Source: Gemmatimonadota bacterium (GTDB lineage Bacteria; JBHIER01; G020348925). Taken from it: a stretch of 64,000 bases of DNA. The stretch lies in contig CP070758.1 in NCBI GenBank assembly GCA_020348925.1, positions 292,941 through 356,940 on the forward strand, written 5' to 3'. Made by a program: the position numbers and the translations under genes. This document shows positions 45,845 through 58,418 of this stretch, one piece after another. Within the stretch, counting starts at the first letter, position 1, and every line of letters starts with the position of its first letter. The notes below the pieces were generated by a model. That model made no database searches, was not told where the DNA came from, and saw only the letters and a list, made by a program, of their open reading frames with translations.

Positions 45845-47596
45845 TTATGCCTGAATGATTTCGGTCCTCTCTAAATTATGGTTGTATCGAATAACGCAAT
45901 TCCCTCCCGTTTTTTTTGCCACGTACAATGCCTTATCGGCATGTTCCACTAACTTTACCTTCGACTGAGCATCTTCAGGATAAATAGCGACACCAACGCT
46001 CACTGTCAGTCTCCCTCCTGAGATCCCACCCTGCCCCTCAAAAGGGTATTTGTGTACAAGTTTCCGAATTCGTTCAGCCTGATGCTCCGCATCGTCGGCA
46101 TCGGTTTCAGGCAGAAGGATGCAAAATTCATCCCCCCCATATCTGGCGACGAAATCAATCTCTCTGACGTTCGTTTCAAGCAATTGAGCCAGCACTTTCA
46201 GGATGTTGTCACCGGGAATATGTCCGAAGGTATCGTTGTATTCCTTGAAATGGTCAATGTCCATCATGATGAAGGCCAGGGGTCGTTTAAACCTGTTGGA
46301 GCGCTTCATCTCTTCACTCAATTTCCGGTTCAAATGCCTTCGATTGGACAATTTTGTCAGATCATCTAACGTTGACAGTTCCTCAAGTTTCTTGTTTGAT
46401 ACCTTCAGTTCGGCTTCGGTGCGCCTCACTTTGTCGATCAGCTTTCCCAACCCCACATTCTCTTTTTGAACCGCGCCCAAAAGGCGCAGTGTCTTCAGGT
46501 GTTGTCTTCCGGCAATTTTGAGCTCATGCCGCAATGAGTCGCTTGTTTTTCTCAACTCGCCACCTAAGCTCTCACGACACGATACGTCTCTGTCTATTAT
46601 GGTCAGGCCGGTCACATAGCCCTCGGCGTCAGTCAAAGGAAAGCATGTTGTCAGAACCAGGTGTCTCCTGCCATCTTTCCCGATGCGAGATGATTTCGTT
46701 TCTATCGAACCTCCTTCCTCAGCAAGCCTCTTTGAGAGACCTTTTGATCTGCCCCGGTGCTCAGGCGGATCTAAGAGATCATCCATATTGTTGCCTATAA
46801 CCTCTTCTTTTCGATAACCATAGAGACTTTCGGCACCAGCGTTCCAGCTCTTGATCGTACCATCCATATTTACGGTAAAGATAGCGTCTTTCGTATATTC
46901 AGTCAAATTCGCCAAAAAGTTTCGTGTTATTCTGGTCTCCCTCTCTATACTCATTCGTTGCAGGGCTAATCCCACAATACTCGCAAAGACTTCCAACGTC
47001 TCGATGTTTCTGAGAGTCGGTTCATTCTTGTCCGGAGGATAGCTTACGGCGAACACACCGATCATAGTATCTCGGTCATCCTGAAAGGGAACAATGACAC
47101 TACCGTGAAAGGCACGACAGTTTTCAACATCTTTACCAGAGACCTCCTCCGGTGCATTTTCTTCAACTCCACTCCTTCCTGTAGGAGATTGAATATAATA
47201 CGATCTGCTGATCTTTTTACCGCTGCGCATGACGCTCTTCACGGCGCTCAATGAAAACGTTTTTTTCTCCAATTTCCCGAATTTCTGAATCTCGCCTCTG
47301 GATACTCTGCACTCCAGTCTCATTTCTGAGCCATGGACGAGACAGACCATAACGCTTTCATAACCGAAGCCGTCCTTCATGGCTCTTGCCATTTCTTTCA
47401 AAAGATCTTCTCTCTTCCGAAATGTCATAAATTCTGAGATTAGTCGGTGAAGAATAGACAACAGCTCCGCTTCTTGCGACGATGACGTCGTCCCAGACGT
47501 GGGATTCGGCGAGAGATCATGTCCAATCGAGGGCATCTTGAGGCTATCTTCCTCGACCTTTCTCTTGCGGTCTATAGAGGGGTATCGGTTATGCAT
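45845..47596 (-). CDS. GAF-PAS-GGDEF diguanylate cyclase
   Basis: 583 residues, soluble. A GAF domain lies at about 45-215 (LLSILHRLISEFMTFRKRED), and a PAS domain with its C-terminal motif at about 225-350 (YTKDAIFTVNMDGTIKSWNA). A coiled coil with SNKKLEELSTLDDLTKLSNR leads into the GGDEF domain (410-575). The active site is intact (ARYGGDEFCILLPET), and the inhibitory site RxxD (REID) lies five residues upstream, so product feedback is expected. It makes c-di-GMP from two GTP. The first ATG at 47596 lacks a clear ribosome-binding site; MPSIGHD at 47536 after GAGGAAG is an alternative. The gene belongs to the co-directional c-di-GMP block. Confidence 0.93.
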   Translation of the reverse strand: MHNRYPSIDRKRKVEEDSLKMPSIGHDLSPNPTSGTTSSSQEAELLSILHRLISEFMTFRKREDLLKEMARAMKDGFGYESVMVCLVHGSEMRLECRVSRGEIQKFGKLEKKTFSLSAVKSVMRSGKKISRSYYIQSPTGRSGVEENAPEEVSGKDVENCRAFHGSVIVPFQDDRDTMIGVFAVSYPPDKNEPTLRNIETLEVFASIVGLALQRMSIERETRITRNFLANLTEYTKDAIFTVNMDGTIKSWNAGAESLYGYRKEEVIGNNMDDLLDPPEHRGRSKGLSKRLAEEGGSIETKSSRIGKDGRRHLVLTTCFPLTDAEGYVTGLTIIDRDVSCRESLGGELRKTSDSLRHELKIAGRQHLKTLRLLGAVQKENVGLGKLIDKVRRTEAELKVSNKKLEELSTLDDLTKLSNRRHLNRKLSEEMKRSNRFKRPLAFIMMDIDHFKEYNDTFGHIPGDNILKVLAQLLETNVREIDFVARYGGDEFCILLPETDADDAEHQAERIRKLVHKYPFEGQGGISGGRLTVSVGVAIYPEDAQSKVKLVEHADKALYVAKKTGGNCVIRYNHNLERTEIIQA

Positions 47597-50990: not shown

Positions 50991-51728
50991 CTATGTATTG
51001 CAGGCAAAATTAGGGAAGCTCCTTGTTGAGTACCAGGAGAAGTGATCCGAATCTGCCTCAACCTTGATGGGTTCACCACAATCATCCGCACCAATCTGGG
51101 CACCGATCCATTCCCAAAGACCGATTTCTTCATTGAAACAGTAGCAACCAAGATCCCCTTGCCCCTCCGCATTCGATATATCGAGATCCGTTACTTTATG
51201 AGTAAGTGCCAGGCTTTTTTCGAACACATTTCCATGGGATCCAAAAGCGAGATCCCCATCCGACATCATACTGTCACAGCCGAGATTCATGCCCTTCAGA
51301 ACGTCTGTTGAAACAGCGTCCGGAGGACTCCTTGGTCTCGATTTGATGCAAACTTCATTGTCGTTAGCTGAAGGTTGATAACGGTCTTTGAGTTTGAGCT
51401 CTCCGCCAGCCTCTCGACCGATGAACACCTCAACGCGTGTTTCGTCTGCTGCAATGACTGGAGTTCCTTTTCATTCACTCTGCAGCTCAATAAATTTGAG
51501 GGCTGTGGCCGGTACACCGCGGCTCCCCTCCGGTTCAACCATTATCGAATTGAGAGAGGGAGGCGAACCGTTTTCAGAGGCCTCTCCAAAACTTGCGGAT
51601 AAATCGCCTATAAAAGCCTCAAACTCTAACATCGCAACGAATTTCTTTGAAGAGGGGAAATTACTTTTCTTCGTTCAACCATGCTCCTTTTCCCTCCGAA
51701 AATTGTCTGCAACGGTTTTGGGGTTCAT
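50991..51728 (-). pseudogene. Riboswitch-controlled ORF with two in-frame TGA codons
   Basis: A single minus-strand frame of 246 codons begins at an ATG (51728) with GGAGAGAGA just upstream, about 30 bases after the riboswitch terminator. It is interrupted only by two TGA codons: after REKEHG (codon 18) and after FIELQSE (codon 92). No frameshift was found between start and the final TAG. The product includes GREAGGELKLKDRYQPSAND and ends IGLWEWIGAQIGADDCGEP with DHFSWYS, which resembles the ZU5-like end of secreted bacterial proteins. There is no signal peptide now. I rate nonsense decay as most likely; recoding (for example selenocysteine) is possible but unsupported by any SECIS I can see. 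Confidence 0.55.
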
Positions 51729-51757: not shown

Positions 51758-51798
51758 AAAAAACCGGACCACCGAAGAAGTGCGCGCTTCGGCAGCCC
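51758..51798 (-). terminator. Riboswitch expression platform: overlapping terminator
   Basis: On the minus strand, GGGCTGCCGAAG (51798-51787), which is part of the aptamer 3' side, can form a 12-bp stem with CTTCGGTGGTCC (51777-51766), including some G-T pairs. GG and six T follow. Pairing would destroy the aptamer, so ligand binding should prevent termination. Confidence 0.7.
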
Positions 51799-51886
51799 GG
51801 CTATCATAATCGGTTGGTACTCGAACCGATTTTAGACCCGTAGCTTTGTGTCTCCCGGTTTCCCGGGGTTTACCCTTTTCGAACGC
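51784..51886 (-). ncRNA. Cyclic-di-GMP-I (GEMM-I) riboswitch aptamer
   Basis: Read on the minus strand, all consensus elements occur in order. AAAAGGGTAAACC is followed by a stem CCCGG-GAAA-CCGGG with the GNRA tetraloop, then AGACACAAAGCTACGGGTCT, a 7-bp stem ATCGGTT/AACCGAT, TATGATAGCCGGGC and TGCCGA. GCTA pairs with TAGC, and the outer P1 joins GCG/CGC and TTCG/CGAA with one bulge. The guanine expected at the position that separates c-di-GMP from cGAMP aptamers appears to be G, favouring c-di-GMP. The 3' side overlaps a terminator. The downstream genes are the TGA-interrupted ORF and the two TPR genes; a diguanylate cyclase lies further along. Confidence 0.9.
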
Positions 51887-52175
51887 TCTTCCCGAAGAAC
51901 TGCCCCAGGAAGTATTTCTCAAGTATGCGAAAACCATGCCGAATCGGTGAAAAGGAATCAAAGTTTTCACCTCAAAACGGTTAGAGAGAGAACCTTCGAT
52001 CCTGTCGAGCGAGGGGCGAACAATGGTAACAAATTATTTTGGAACGAATTTCCAAGAATAAGTGACGGAACTTGTGAGGCCGGAGGATACATGCATCCCC
52101 CAAAAAAATAGGAAGGAGTGCCGTGTTAAAATGCGGTTGTTTGAATAGAGACGAAAGAGCTTTTGGGGAATATTC
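51887..52175. other. Upstream region of the riboswitch, downstream of the activator gene
   Basis: Contains the candidate sigma-54 promoter at 51926-51941. On the plus strand AGGAAGGAG precedes an 18-codon GTG-started frame at 52123 that overlaps the activator gene end; it is not called. Confidence 0.4.
51926..51941 (-). promoter_or_regulatory. Candidate sigma-54 promoter of the riboswitch transcript
   Basis: On the minus strand CGGCATGGTTTTCGCA fits the -24/-12 pattern TGGCAC-N5-TTGCA with the invariant GG and GC ten bases apart and three mismatches elsewhere. The predicted start would lie about 28 bases before the aptamer. A sigma-54 activator gene ends 235 bases upstream. Inferred from pattern only. 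Confidence 0.5.
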
Positions 52176-53219
52176 CTAATACTGGGGAGTATTACTCAGT
52201 TCTTCGACGGGTTCTGTGCTGTTTGATGTGGTTTTATCGAGTCCGTAGCGCTTCATACGGTAGCGGAGTCGATCGCGAGTGATTCGAAGGAATCGCGCGG
52301 CTTCACTCACATTCCAGTGACACATGTTCAATGTCTCTTCGATCAATTTTCGCTCCACATCGGCCAAGGGTAGTCCCCAGGGCGGAATATTGAAAGTAAC
52401 ATCGCCCCACGGACTGATCTCCATTGGGGGTCGTGGCACTTGCGAGCGTCGATCTTTGATCCGGCGGTCGATGTCGAAATTTTGTGGCTTCAGCAACTTT
52501 TCGCCGGCCAAAAAGACACCTTTTTCAATCGCGTTTTTCAGTTCTCTCACATTCCCCGGCCACGAATAGCTCCTCAGGAGGCCTTTCGCCCCTTTTGAGA
52601 AACCTTCTATATCCCTTTCATACTCTGAATTAAACTGATCCAGAAAATGGTCCGCGAGGAGGAGTACGTCCTCTCCTCGTTCTCTCAGAGGGGGAAGATG
52701 CAAGCTGATAACATTTAAACGATAATACAAATCCTCCCGAAACGTGCCCTCGTTGACCGCTTTCTCCAAATCGATATTGGTTGCAGCCAGGATCCTCACT
52801 GTGACTCGTATCTCCTCGGAGCCGCCTATCCGCATGAATCTCTTTTCCTCTATGGCCCTCAATATTTTTGATTGAAGCTTGAGACTCATCGTGCCAATTT
52901 CATCCATGAAAAGAATACCGCCATGCGCCAACTCAAAGAGCCCGTTCTTTTGAATCTTGGCGTCCGTAAAAGCTCCCCGTTCGTAGCCGAAGAGTTCTGC
53001 TTCCAGTAAATTCTCGGGAATTGTCGAGCAGTTGACGTCGACAAAAGGCTGCTCAGGACGGCCGTACTTGTGAATCAGTCTGGCTATCAGTTCTTTACCA
53101 GTACCGCTTTCTCCCCGGATCAGGACCGTCATTTTTGAATTCCGGGCGGCCTTTTTGGCCGTCTCAATGATTTCCAGGAGCCTTTTGTCTTCTCCGACGA
53201 TATTTATCTCGTGATCCAT
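52176..53219 (-). CDS. Sigma-54-dependent transcriptional activator (AAA+ and Fis domains, no receiver)
   Basis: 347 residues. It lacks a receiver or other sensory domain and begins directly with the AAA+ module. Walker A is GESGTGKELIARLI, the loop motif GAFTDAK is a frequent variant of GAFTGA, and Walker B is GGILFMDEIGTM. The arginine-finger region is FREDLYYRLNVISLHLPPLR, and SWPGNVRELKNAIEKGVFL follows. The C-terminal Fis-type helix-turn-helix is LNMCHWNVSEAARFLRITRD. It should hydrolyse ATP to remodel sigma-54 RNA polymerase at a -24/-12 promoter. The gene reads toward the c-di-GMP riboswitch, which has such a promoter candidate. How it is controlled is unknown. Confidence 0.93.
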   Translation of the reverse strand: MDHEINIVGEDKRLLEIIETAKKAARNSKMTVLIRGESGTGKELIARLIHKYGRPEQPFVDVNCSTIPENLLEAELFGYERGAFTDAKIQKNGLFELAHGGILFMDEIGTMSLKLQSKILRAIEEKRFMRIGGSEEIRVTVRILAATNIDLEKAVNEGTFREDLYYRLNVISLHLPPLRERGEDVLLLADHFLDQFNSEYERDIEGFSKGAKGLLRSYSWPGNVRELKNAIEKGVFLAGEKLLKPQNFDIDRRIKDRRSQVPRPPMEISPWGDVTFNIPPWGLPLADVERKLIEETLNMCHWNVSEAARFLRITRDRLRYRMKRYGLDKTTSNSTEPVEELSNTPQY

Positions 53220-53785: not shown

Positions 53786-55378
53786 TTAAGGTTCACAGCT
53801 ATCTGTCCCCAGAATAACGTTCACGATGTTGATGAGGTCAAAGAGGTCGATTACGGCATCGGCGTTGCAATCGGCAGCCCAGAGAGAATCACCCGTCAGG
53901 ATCTCTGTTCCCAAAATATGATTGACAATTTCCAACAGATCAAAAAGATCGATACTGTCATCACCGTTGACATCGCCCCTGGCTTGCTGAGACTGGCATT
54001 CGCCCTCGTAATCTACATTGACTCCGACGGCAGCAGCTTCGCAGGCGTTGGAGTATGTTCTCCCGTTGCAGCCGCACACAGGATCCCAGACATTCGGGCA
54101 CCCCTGGGGTCTTGGCTCACAGACTCCCTGACCGGAGCAGTCGCCCGTTTCTTTTTCGCAATAGTTCCCTGATGGGCAGTCGCCAATCGTTGAGCAGGCA
54201 ATGGCGCATTCACCGATGTAGTCTATATTCACACCGGAGAGGGCCGCCTCACACTCGTTTGAGTAGGTCCTGCCGTCACAGCCGCAGACAGGATCCCATA
54301 GCGGAGGGCACAGGGTTGGTTTCGGTTGGCACCTTCCGTTGCCAGTGCAATTCCCCGTCACCTTTTCGCAGTATTCCTCAGGTGAACAATCATTATTTTT
54401 AGAACACGAAACTGAGCACTCACCCTCATAGGCTATGTTCATTCCCAACATTGCCGCGATACAAGCGTTGATGTAAGTTCTTCCGTCGCAGCCGCAGACA
54501 GGATCATGTAGTATCGGGCAGACGGTCGGCTTCAGATTGCACGTTCCCTGACCGTTACAATCGCCCACTGCCTTTGAGCAGTATTCTCCCAAGTCACACT
54601 CTCGGTTGCCTCTGCAGTAAAAGAGCCCGCATTCACCCTCAAATTCAACGTTCACTCCAGCCATGGCGGCGAGACACTCGTTCGAGTACGTGATGCCATC
54701 GCAGCCGCAGACGGGATCCACGATGTCAGGACATACTCCCGGCATGGGTTGACACGATCCCTGACCCTCGCAATCTCCTGTCGCCTTGGCACAATATTCA
54801 TCTTGGCCGCAGTCGACGTTGAGCGAACAAGATGCCGCAGCGCATTCACCGTCATAGTCCACATTCTCCCCGGCGAGGGCGGCATAGCAGGCATTGCTGT
54901 ATGTTACTCCATCACAGCCGCAGACAGGATCCCAAACAGGTAAACATGACGCCGGTATGTCGGCGCACGCGCCTGTCTCATCGCAGTTGCCTGTTGTCTT
55001 TGTGCAATACTCCCCTCCTTGACAGTCATTGTTGTCGATGCAGCCCTCGGAGCACTCTCCTTCGTAGTCGACACTCATTCCGGCCTGGGCGGCAAAGCAG
55101 TAATTTGTATAGGTCTCGCCGTCACATCCGCATACAGGGTCCCAGATATCCTGACATGTGTTCGGTTTCGTTGCACAAGTTCCCAAATCATCACAGCCTC
55201 CGGTCTCCTTCATGCAGTATTCTGCAGGGCCGCAGTCGGTATTTTTCGAACAATCGGTGGCATTTCCGGTGTTCTCACCGGCGTTTCCGGTGCCCAGGGT
55301 GCTCACTCTTGGAACCGTGATACTGAAACCCACGATACACAGCACGATCAGAACTGAAGGTAACATATAGCGCACCAT
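53786..55378 (-). CDS. Secreted six-Kazal-domain inhibitor with dockerin
   Basis: 530 residues. A signal peptide (MLPSVLIVLCIVGFSITVPR) is followed by six tandem modules of about 70-75 residues. Each has a cysteine-rich lead (CSKNNDCSPEEYCEKVTGNC and variants) and a Kazal core (WDPVCGCDGRTYSNECEAAL, ending YEGEC). Kazal domains are tight-binding inhibitors of serine proteases and keep the six-cysteine, follistatin-like fold. A two-repeat type I dockerin ends the protein (GDVNGDDSIDLFDLLEIVNH, DCNADAVIDLFDLINIVNVI). The gene follows the M6 protease after 61 bases, so they form an operon. Kazal domains would not inhibit a metalloprotease; the target may be foreign or the organism's own serine proteases. 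Confidence 0.93.
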   Translation of the reverse strand: MVRYMLPSVLIVLCIVGFSITVPRVSTLGTGNAGENTGNATDCSKNTDCGPAEYCMKETGGCDDLGTCATKPNTCQDIWDPVCGCDGETYTNYCFAAQAGMSVDYEGECSEGCIDNNDCQGGEYCTKTTGNCDETGACADIPASCLPVWDPVCGCDGVTYSNACYAALAGENVDYDGECAAASCSLNVDCGQDEYCAKATGDCEGQGSCQPMPGVCPDIVDPVCGCDGITYSNECLAAMAGVNVEFEGECGLFYCRGNRECDLGEYCSKAVGDCNGQGTCNLKPTVCPILHDPVCGCDGRTYINACIAAMLGMNIAYEGECSVSCSKNNDCSPEEYCEKVTGNCTGNGRCQPKPTLCPPLWDPVCGCDGRTYSNECEAALSGVNIDYIGECAIACSTIGDCPSGNYCEKETGDCSGQGVCEPRPQGCPNVWDPVCGCNGRTYSNACEAAAVGVNVDYEGECQSQQARGDVNGDDSIDLFDLLEIVNHILGTEILTGDSLWAADCNADAVIDLFDLINIVNVILGTDSCEP

Positions 55379-55439: not shown

Positions 55440-58418
55440 CTACTTGAGGAACATCATCTTTTTCTTCGCGGTGAATTCTCCGGCCTGCAAGCGATAAAAG
55501 TAGACTCCGCTGGAGACGTCGTCTCCTTCCTCGTCCATTCCGTCCCAGGTTACAGTATGGTAGCCGGGCTCTTTGACACCGTCCACCAATGTCCTCACCC
55601 TCTGCCCGAGAAGGTTGTAAACATTCAGGGTGACGTGGGAGGGGGATTGATCACTGACCACTGAATACTCGATAGTGGTTGTCGGATTGAAGGGATTGGG
55701 ATAATTCTGAGCGAGACCGAACGCAACCGGAGCCGTTGAATCCTCCTTGAGCAGAGCCATAAACTTGGCGAAGTGTTCATCTGAGAAGTGAGGTTTCAGC
55801 GACTCGAGGTATTCCAGCACTTCGGGAGTAAGGGCTGCCCTTTGCGCACCGGGTTGGCACACCCCCATCCCCAAAACGACGTTCACAATACCGATGCCAT
55901 CCACGATATCAATGCTCCCATTTCCAGTGCAATCGGCCCCCCAAATGTGAGAGGGGACGGGTTCGACAAGACCCAGGATGATATTGACAACTCGTATGAC
56001 ATCCAAAATATCCACACTCCCATCCTCCGTCGCATCTCCTCGAACCGGCACGATTCGAAGCCAATCGATAATGTTCTCCATGATATGTGCCCGTGTCTCC
56101 TCGGAGTCATGTACGGGATCGATGATAGATTCGAAACCAAAAGGTAAAAAGACCAGACGGTGCTCACCACTGTACTTAATTCCTGCCGCTCTCCCGGAAG
56201 GCTCGTACGTAAAGAGAGCGCTGGCTTCAGGCATGGGAGCGATAGCGTCCGGGGAGAGTTGAATATCAGCACATTCATCCCCGGCAATGGTCACAAAATT
56301 GATATTACCGCTGATGGGATCACCTCCAATGCCGTAGATGATACCCTCATCGCTGTTATCGGCCATCCATTCAGCGTGCAGATACTCATTTAAAAATGAG
56401 GAGGATTGGATTTCAGTGGCAACATTCTGGCCGGAGATAAAAAGCTTTCCACCGCCATCCAAAAATGCGGCCAAATGTGTCTGGTCCTCCATTGAGAGGG
56501 TCTGTTGTGTGAAGCCGGTGGACCAGATGACGATCTCATACGTCTCGAGCCAGTCTGAATCGCATGGACCGGCGCTCTCGTAATCCCAATGGTCAAAGAT
56601 CTGTTCAAGGCTGTCTAAGGCTGCCCGATAGTATCCTTCAACTTCATGTTTCGACTCATTCGCGGTGGTATCGTAATCGTCATCAACCAAAAGAATATCA
56701 GGCTGCCCGATAGTCACTCTCAAGGATAGCTGCGTTATTTCTCCTCCAACATCTGACCAAATATCCAGGGTAAAGTAGGCGTAATGGACATCGGCCGCCT
56801 CATCCACAGAAAAAGAGAAAGGTGCGGCACTGTTGTCGCCTGACGAATCGAAAGGAATATTACTGAAGGAGGTTTCGTCAACGAGAAAATGTATGCTCTG
56901 ATCCAGCGTGGAGAGTTTTCCCGAAACGCTCGTTGCATCTGCCCCGTAGTTTAACACACTTATTACCACATCCACTGTTTCTCCCGGATCGGGTTTCCCG
57001 TTGTCGTTCCCATCCGCGTCAACAACCTGGGTATCGTCATAGATGAAGAGGGGGTTTTTGGTAAAGACCTCCAAGTCCGCTATCATAATCGACTGCGAAT
57101 CGCTGATATTCATCACCGCCACTTGAGAGAGATCGCCACTGTTGATCCGCGAGTTCGGATTTGTGAAGAGGCTGAACATTCGATTCCCCGATGAACCGGG
57201 ATACGAATCGCCGTCATCACCGCGGCCATTTCCCCTGTCCATATCGTTGCAGCCATCGGCCGACTCCAGATCCACCAGTTTGTGGTCCTCGTCATCGTTC
57301 TGCGTCGTGACGGTGTTATCGACGTGCCAGATGAGCAAACCTGTATTATAGAGATTGACATCAAACCCGACATTCTGGCGGTTTTCCACCAGAAAATATT
57401 CATCCCCAGGGGCACCTTCGGTCCACAATTTGTAGACTTCGGGAAACTCCTCGACCTGAGCTATCGGCTGCGCGGGAAGGTTATCCGTCACCACGATAGG
57501 AGTCACCCAGCCTAACCGCTCTTTTGACCAAGCGCAGAAATGGACAGGCAGCTCAGGCGATTGGCCGTCGCCGCCCCAGCTCCCAGAGCCCATCATGGCC
57601 CAGTTGCCGACGCCTTCTGAGCTGTCGTCCCGGTCGTAGAGATCCGGCAGGCCGAGCACATGACCGTACTCATGGCAGAAGACTCCGATAGTAATAAGAC
57701 TCCCCTCCTCATCCTCCTCCGGCTCCATGGCGTATGAATATGCGCGCACTCCATCGTCGGTCACATAGCCATCGCCTGTTCCGTCTTCATTCTCCGGTAT
57801 TCTCCATTTGTGCGACCAGATATCGAGGGAATCGCCTGTCTCCTCTCCGCCGGGTCCCGCGTGGACGATAAAGAGGGCGTCGACGAACCCATCGCCGTCC
57901 TCGTCGAACTGGGAAAAATCGACGAAGGGGTCGGCCGCCACGACCGCATCGTAGGCCAGCCTTCGCCGGTTCTGCGGCCACTCCCCACGGCCAAACCCAT
58001 CACCGGCATAGTATTCATTGGTCTGGGGCAGTAAAATCCAATTCGTGACCACACCGCTGATGAAGAACTGCCCGTAGGAGACCTCCTGATAATAGTCGTA
58101 CATACTGCCCGTGGGGACAGCTCCTGTTGAATCGAATAACAGTGTCTCATACGCTGAGGGAGGATGCTGCCCCCTGTTCGCTCTGTTGTCTGTAAATTCA
58201 ACCAGCAGGACGATGGCCTTCCTGCTGCCTGTCACCGGGGCCCTGAGAGGCTCGGGCTCATCCACGCCGGCCTGCGAATGCCGCAGAAAAGCCCCTATCT
58301 TTCTGCTGGACTCATTCTTGCTGAGGAGTCCCGGTTTGGCCGAGACAGCCAAAAGCGAGTTGGTCGAAACAAAGACCAGAAAGAGTAAACACCAAACGAT
58401 CCCTTTTGCCCTTCTCAT
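55440..58418 (-). CDS. Secreted M6-family metalloprotease (immune inhibitor A type) with dockerin and FlgD-like sorting tail
   Basis: 992 residues. Signal peptide MRRAKGIVWCLLFLVFVSTN. The M6 catalytic domain spans about 60-430; the zinc site is HEYGHVLGLPDLYD at residues 249-262. Glycan- or protein-binding-like modules follow, and near residue 590-770 a domain with ILLVDDDYDTTANESKHEVE. A type I dockerin (GDATEDGSVDILDVIRVVNI, DCTGNGSIDIVDGIGIVNVV) precedes a FlgD-like C-terminal segment (ILDNPFNP-type YPNPFNPTTTIEYSV, VYNLLGQRVRTLVDG, FYRLQAGEFTAKKKMMFLK), similar to Por-secretion sorting domains. The ATG follows GGGAGGAGTAAC. It is the first gene of an operon with the Kazal inhibitor and has a promoter at 58520-58548. 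Confidence 0.92.
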   Translation of the reverse strand: MRRAKGIVWCLLFLVFVSTNSLLAVSAKPGLLSKNESSRKIGAFLRHSQAGVDEPEPLRAPVTGSRKAIVLLVEFTDNRANRGQHPPSAYETLLFDSTGAVPTGSMYDYYQEVSYGQFFISGVVTNWILLPQTNEYYAGDGFGRGEWPQNRRRLAYDAVVAADPFVDFSQFDEDGDGFVDALFIVHAGPGGEETGDSLDIWSHKWRIPENEDGTGDGYVTDDGVRAYSYAMEPEEDEEGSLITIGVFCHEYGHVLGLPDLYDRDDSSEGVGNWAMMGSGSWGGDGQSPELPVHFCAWSKERLGWVTPIVVTDNLPAQPIAQVEEFPEVYKLWTEGAPGDEYFLVENRQNVGFDVNLYNTGLLIWHVDNTVTTQNDDEDHKLVDLESADGCNDMDRGNGRGDDGDSYPGSSGNRMFSLFTNPNSRINSGDLSQVAVMNISDSQSIMIADLEVFTKNPLFIYDDTQVVDADGNDNGKPDPGETVDVVISVLNYGADATSVSGKLSTLDQSIHFLVDETSFSNIPFDSSGDNSAAPFSFSVDEAADVHYAYFTLDIWSDVGGEITQLSLRVTIGQPDILLVDDDYDTTANESKHEVEGYYRAALDSLEQIFDHWDYESAGPCDSDWLETYEIVIWSTGFTQQTLSMEDQTHLAAFLDGGGKLFISGQNVATEIQSSSFLNEYLHAEWMADNSDEGIIYGIGGDPISGNINFVTIAGDECADIQLSPDAIAPMPEASALFTYEPSGRAAGIKYSGEHRLVFLPFGFESIIDPVHDSEETRAHIMENIIDWLRIVPVRGDATEDGSVDILDVIRVVNIILGLVEPVPSHIWGADCTGNGSIDIVDGIGIVNVVLGMGVCQPGAQRAALTPEVLEYLESLKPHFSDEHFAKFMALLKEDSTAPVAFGLAQNYPNPFNPTTTIEYSVVSDQSPSHVTLNVYNLLGQRVRTLVDGVKEPGYHTVTWDGMDEEGDDVSSGVYFYRLQAGEFTAKKKMMFLK

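Follow-up and report, generated by a model that had tools for sequence, protein, structure and literature searches.

The minus-strand leader described here very probably contains a c-di-GMP-I (GEMM-I) riboswitch that works at the level of transcription and in the ON sense, as judged from a covariance-model search and from RNA folding: within the 64-kb window (the whole stretch of DNA that was analyzed), the 3' strand of the aptamer also serves as the 5' arm of a terminator (Table 1). This type of switch is already known and the window element adds one more case to it; the parts worth following are the pairing of GEMM-I aptamers with sigma-54-type promoters and the opposite signs predicted for the leaders of two pilin operons.

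Table 1 Features of the window riboswitch, its upstream region and the genes behind it
Feature	Position	Strand	Basis or remark
Sigma-54 activator, AAA+ with Fis-type HTH, without N-terminal sensor domain	52176..53219	(-)	immediately upstream
Sigma-54-type candidate promoter TTCGGCATGGTTTTCGC (GG-N10-GC)	51927..51943	(-)	score 0.84 of maximum
P1 5' strand GCGUUCG	51880..51886	(-)	paired to 51791-51784 when the transcript ends near 51784-51776
c-di-GMP-I (GEMM-I) aptamer, RF01051	51788..51884	(-)	covariance-model search
Terminator 5' arm AGCCGGGCUGCCGAAG	51787..51802	(-)	in common with the aptamer P3/P1 3' strands
P1 3' strand CGAAGCGC	51784..51791	(-)	growing-transcript folds; first bases common to terminator 5' arm
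Terminator 3' arm CUUCGGUGGUCCGGUU	51762..51777	(-)	folding
T6 tract of terminator	51758..51763	(-)	sequence; first two T shared with the stem, which they close
Interrupted reading frame	50991..51728	(-)	two TGAs (51677-51675, 51473-51471); coding bias along the whole frame
TPR protein, 434 aa	49649..50953	(-)	
Second TPR protein, 426 aa	47931..49211	(-)	related to the first
PAS-GGDEF protein	45845..47596	(-)	canonical GHxxGD and I-site RxxD
HD-GYP gene fragment	45678-45223	(-)	carries an in-frame stop; follows the intact GGDEF gene

The aptamer

The search with the Rfam model RF01051 that the original prediction had named gave a match well over the gathering threshold (78.4 bits, with the gathering score at 35; E=1e-13; model covered in full, 1-87), a rerun on a short stretch agreed with it, and RF01051 at 51884-51788 (-) was the sole Rfam family above threshold across the whole window. 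The GEMM-I riboswitch proposed for the minus strand is thus borne out with fitting coordinates, and the conserved segments listed for it are all present in order, namely the GNRA-capped P2, ACACAAAGC, CGGGTCT, TAGCCGGGC and TGCCGA. The P2 tetraloop is GAAA and aligns to the RF01051 model, with a predicted receptor contact, and in the folds of the growing transcript GCGUUCG and CGAAGCGC form the P1 closing helix beside the three-way junction (7 bp, one bulge). The element is, like the c-di-GMP-I RNAs Vc2 and Cd1 (RF01051), a full-length match with every conserved segment. The model RF03167 (c-di-GMP-I-GGC), of the same clan, best describes six sibling aptamers of the genome, whereas the window's own element is best fitted by RF01051.

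The overlapping terminator and the sign of the switch

Folding and a shuffle test agree with the claim that the terminator overlaps the aptamer, its 5' arm being the aptamer's own 3' strand. The terminator and its T6 tract had been correctly recognized but the length of the stem had not, as it comprises 16 bp instead of the 12 bp proposed (hairpin 51802-51762, -25.6 kcal/mol, z=-3.5 versus dinucleotide shuffles). None of 500 shuffles attained the pairing seen between the aptamer 3' strand and the sequence downstream, so that this pairing is not due to chance. A generic terminator scan did not call this hairpin, probably because its 9-nt loop exceeds the limit of 8 set in the scan. In the aligned terminator stems of the GEMM-I elements 89% were paired, compared with 28-57% when the arms were slid by 1-3 columns, a count for which the shuffle control gives no significance, as there is hardly any variation in the 5' arm. 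Compensatory changes were considered as proof of the helix and discarded for being too few, the 5' arm being fixed by the aptamer.

Since the terminator uses the 3' strand of the aptamer, both structures are mutually exclusive and an ON switch is predicted. In minimum-energy folds of the growing transcript, ends at 51784-51776 give P1 and an aptamer-like fold, and from 51768 on the terminator is obtained. A point against this reading is that, without ligand, the terminator is by far the more stable of the two folds (about -61 versus -46 kcal/mol for the aptamer); with a gap of some 15 kcal/mol, switching must be kinetic, within a transcriptional interval of roughly 20 nt. The ON logic originally proposed is supported by these folds, by six siblings with the same arrangement and by the layout of the pilM riboswitch of Geobacter metallireducens, a GEMM-Ib element that senses cGAMP and acts as an ON switch through mutually exclusive folds (PMC9262584). 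Both have a GEMM-I aptamer, a terminator made from the aptamer's own 3' strand, exclusive folds and the ON layout (PMC9262584), and pilus genes are also among the targets of the GEMM-I family in this genome. As the same logic has been described for pilM (PMC9262584), the expression platform in the window is of a known type. They differ in ligand, which is cGAMP for pilM and, as judged from the G20-type pocket and the canonical cyclases, probably c-di-GMP for the window element, whose targets, unlike those of pilM, would be TPR proteins and possibly a cyclase.

The genes behind the switch

The first frame opens with an ATG at 51728, after the terminator, and neither a Pfam match nor a paralogue in the genome was found for it. 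Since TGA is an ordinary stop in this genome, the frame is most likely a pseudogene of recent origin, which may have encoded a surface-type protein. Recoding of TGA was considered and ruled out, as it is the commonest stop of long ORFs in the sampled loci (28/63). The genome encodes a tRNA-Sec; no homologue supporting selenocysteine at the two TGAs was found, and selenocysteine is unlikely there given the second broken gene (HD-GYP) nearby.

The proposed read-through into downstream genes must hence be divided: the first frame is broken, whereas the two TPR genes and the GGDEF gene are intact. These intact genes begin 0.8 to 4 kb from the riboswitch, and the 0.8 kb that separate it from the first of them count against this part of the proposal. 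The PAS-GGDEF protein is expected to be a c-di-GMP synthase. A scan between the downstream genes, with intergenic gaps of 335-440 bp, returned no convincing terminator, and the cyclase possibly lies on the same transcript as the riboswitch. When a TPR gene with a riboswitch was sought in the contigs of other genomes, only distant TPR matches were obtained. Elsewhere in the window, the product of 53786-55378 (-) combines six Kazal-type protease-inhibitor domains with a dockerin domain, and an M6-type peptidase with dockerin (55440-58418) is encoded next to it.

Alternative readings

Three other readings of the element have to be weighed, the first of which concerns the ligand. We consider c-di-GMP, not cGAMP, its likely ligand, because the readable GGDEF domains have the canonical Asp and the aptamer has a G at the Vc2 G20 position. 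The alignment column concerned is the one that we take to be that of G20 in the Vc2 numbering; cGAMP-type GEMM-I RNAs carry an A there, and this GEMM-Ib hallmark is absent from the window aptamer (AAGGGU), which has a G, as do all nine aptamers of the genome. Ten GGDEF matches were found in the genome, and the eight that are readable (all except L058 and L063) have the Asp of GHxxGD, with no Hypr Ser among them; Hypr enzymes have a Ser signature in place of that Asp (PMC6456294). It is thus very unlikely that the aptamer senses 3',3'-cGAMP as a GEMM-Ib RNA, even though the pilM cGAMP riboswitch, with its identical ON layout, is likewise a regulator of pili and the G20 position is described as contributing to selectivity without being a strict filter (PMC9262584); in PMC7288161, a G20A mutant is cited as binding cGAMP.

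The second reading, an OFF switch in which the ligand-bound aptamer permits termination, finds a precedent in the sibling L001 of the same genome, with a three-strand layout that predicts OFF. It is extremely improbable for the window element, where no third strand is present and aptamer and terminator compete directly for the same bases; in the OFF switch Cd1 the terminator can coexist with the aptamer (PMC9262584), whereas that of the window excludes it. Finally, the leader might be a constitutive attenuator or a relic that, with the operon behind it decaying, regulates nothing useful any more. The two in-frame TGAs of the first frame and the HD-GYP fragment with its in-frame stop at the far end of the cluster would fit this reading, but aptamer and terminator are both intact, the aptamer score ranks second of the nine in the genome, and the TPR and GGDEF genes are intact, so that we regard it as unlikely. 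A c-di-GMP-responsive ON switch is the reading that we retain.

Nine GEMM-I elements in one genome

The 5.04-Mb single-contig genome contains nine GEMM-I aptamers, all above threshold, and in seven (the window element, L003-L007 and L009) the terminator overlaps its own aptamer, the 3' strand pairing just upstream of the T run; none of 500 dinucleotide shuffles of the downstream sequence matched this (1/500 for L009). L008 deviates by having a separate terminator further down. In L001, an additional strand similar to the 3' end of the aptamer pairs very strongly with that end (-39 kcal/mol, z=-4.8) and is at the same time the 5' arm of a terminator further downstream, and by layout it would act as an antiterminator strand; this is the predicted classical three-strand layout of an OFF switch. 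L001:1501-1687 (G000:C1:4463382 onward) and L003 (G000:C1:4456513 onward) precede two paralogous minor-pilin operons located 7 kb apart, which were called by an N-methylation motif found in one operon's first gene and otherwise by eye, and opposite signs are predicted for them, ON for L003 and OFF for L001. The other GEMM-I neighbours encode PKD, FG-GAP/dockerin, beta-helix and LamG-type proteins, and such pilin, secreted or surface neighbours are as expected for the c-di-GMP-I riboswitch class. Beyond the pilin operons, at a distance of 14 kb, there is a paralogous cluster (activator, TPR, GGDEF and receiver/HD-GYP), a module in which no GEMM-I was found. A search for relatives among 97 other genomes gave none closer than the same domain.

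Sigma-54-type promoters upstream of GEMM-I aptamers

A sigma-54-type site lies 43 nt upstream of the window aptamer: in CGGCATGGTTTTCGCA, the GG and GC elements are 10 bp apart, near -24/-12, making it a candidate promoter, against which counts that its -12 element is TCGC and not the usual TTGC. Near-identical sites are found upstream of four of the nine GEMM-I elements (P about 3e-6), using a general score with our own weighting; 1.2% of 130-nt stretches drawn at random from the genome reach the same level. The motif GGYAYNNTTTTCGC has eight occurrences in the genome, four of them at GEMM-I riboswitches, a count that speaks for specificity and is not an independent discovery, since the motif was derived from these very sites. 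The genome has one RpoN gene and about two dozen sigma-54 activators. The nearest relative of the window activator (59% identical) sits in the paralogous cluster near other sigma-54/GEMM-I leaders, which suggests, without proving it, that the window activator serves these leaders. A weaker GG-N10-GC site, GATGGTACGGATTTCGC, is present at 53517-53501 (-), about 280 bp upstream of the activator gene, where autoregulation is possible, and an inverted repeat (GGTGAAAA / TTTTCACC, 51970-51940 (-)) just upstream of the sigma-54-type promoter may be a regulator site.

The same pairing was observed beyond this genome, in unrelated bacteria. Among the 46 GEMM-I aptamers of other genomes (loci L019-L098), 15, from eight genomes, have a sigma-54-type site (score >=0.85, within 130 nt upstream), compared with a background of about 1% per equal stretch of flanking DNA; this is an excess of about thirty times, which the binomial value overstates because sites of the same genome are not independent and the flanking DNA is mostly coding. 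A simple rule detected the overlapping terminator in 8/46 of them, and this layout is therefore widespread. No paper stating an association between GEMM-I and sigma-54 was found in the literature searched, which omits most subscription journals. We tentatively propose, as a view about as open to doubt as to support, that GEMM-I aptamers may lie systematically behind sigma-54 promoters across several lineages, so that cell-surface genes would need both an activator and c-di-GMP, with paralogous pilin leaders of opposite predicted sign (L003 ON, L001 OFF) in this genome.

Proposed mechanism and meaning

In the model that we favor, an activator, perhaps the product of the neighbouring gene, would drive RNA polymerase with sigma-54 to start near 51915 and transcribe the aptamer. 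When c-di-GMP is bound, the strand 51802-51784 would be held in P1 and P3 and the polymerase would pass; without c-di-GMP, this strand would pair with 51777-51762 into the 16-bp stem followed by U6, and transcription would stop about 155 nt into the RNA. Read-through would reach the broken surface-type frame, both TPR genes and, should the operon be long enough, the diguanylate cyclase, which inside the operon would make a positive loop. Two signals would then be combined, the activator opening the promoter and c-di-GMP letting the polymerase pass the terminator.

Altogether, a clear c-di-GMP ON switch, as predicted from its layout, is added to a lineage without a near relative among the genomes searched. 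Its wider value lies in the regulon, that is, nine switches in one genome, most of them with a self-overlapping terminator, which lie at genes for pilins and secreted proteins and at a cluster for c-di-GMP synthesis. If the association with sigma-54 is true, two regulators of the bacterial exterior would be joined in one leader, a simple rule that could be tested in cultured bacteria.
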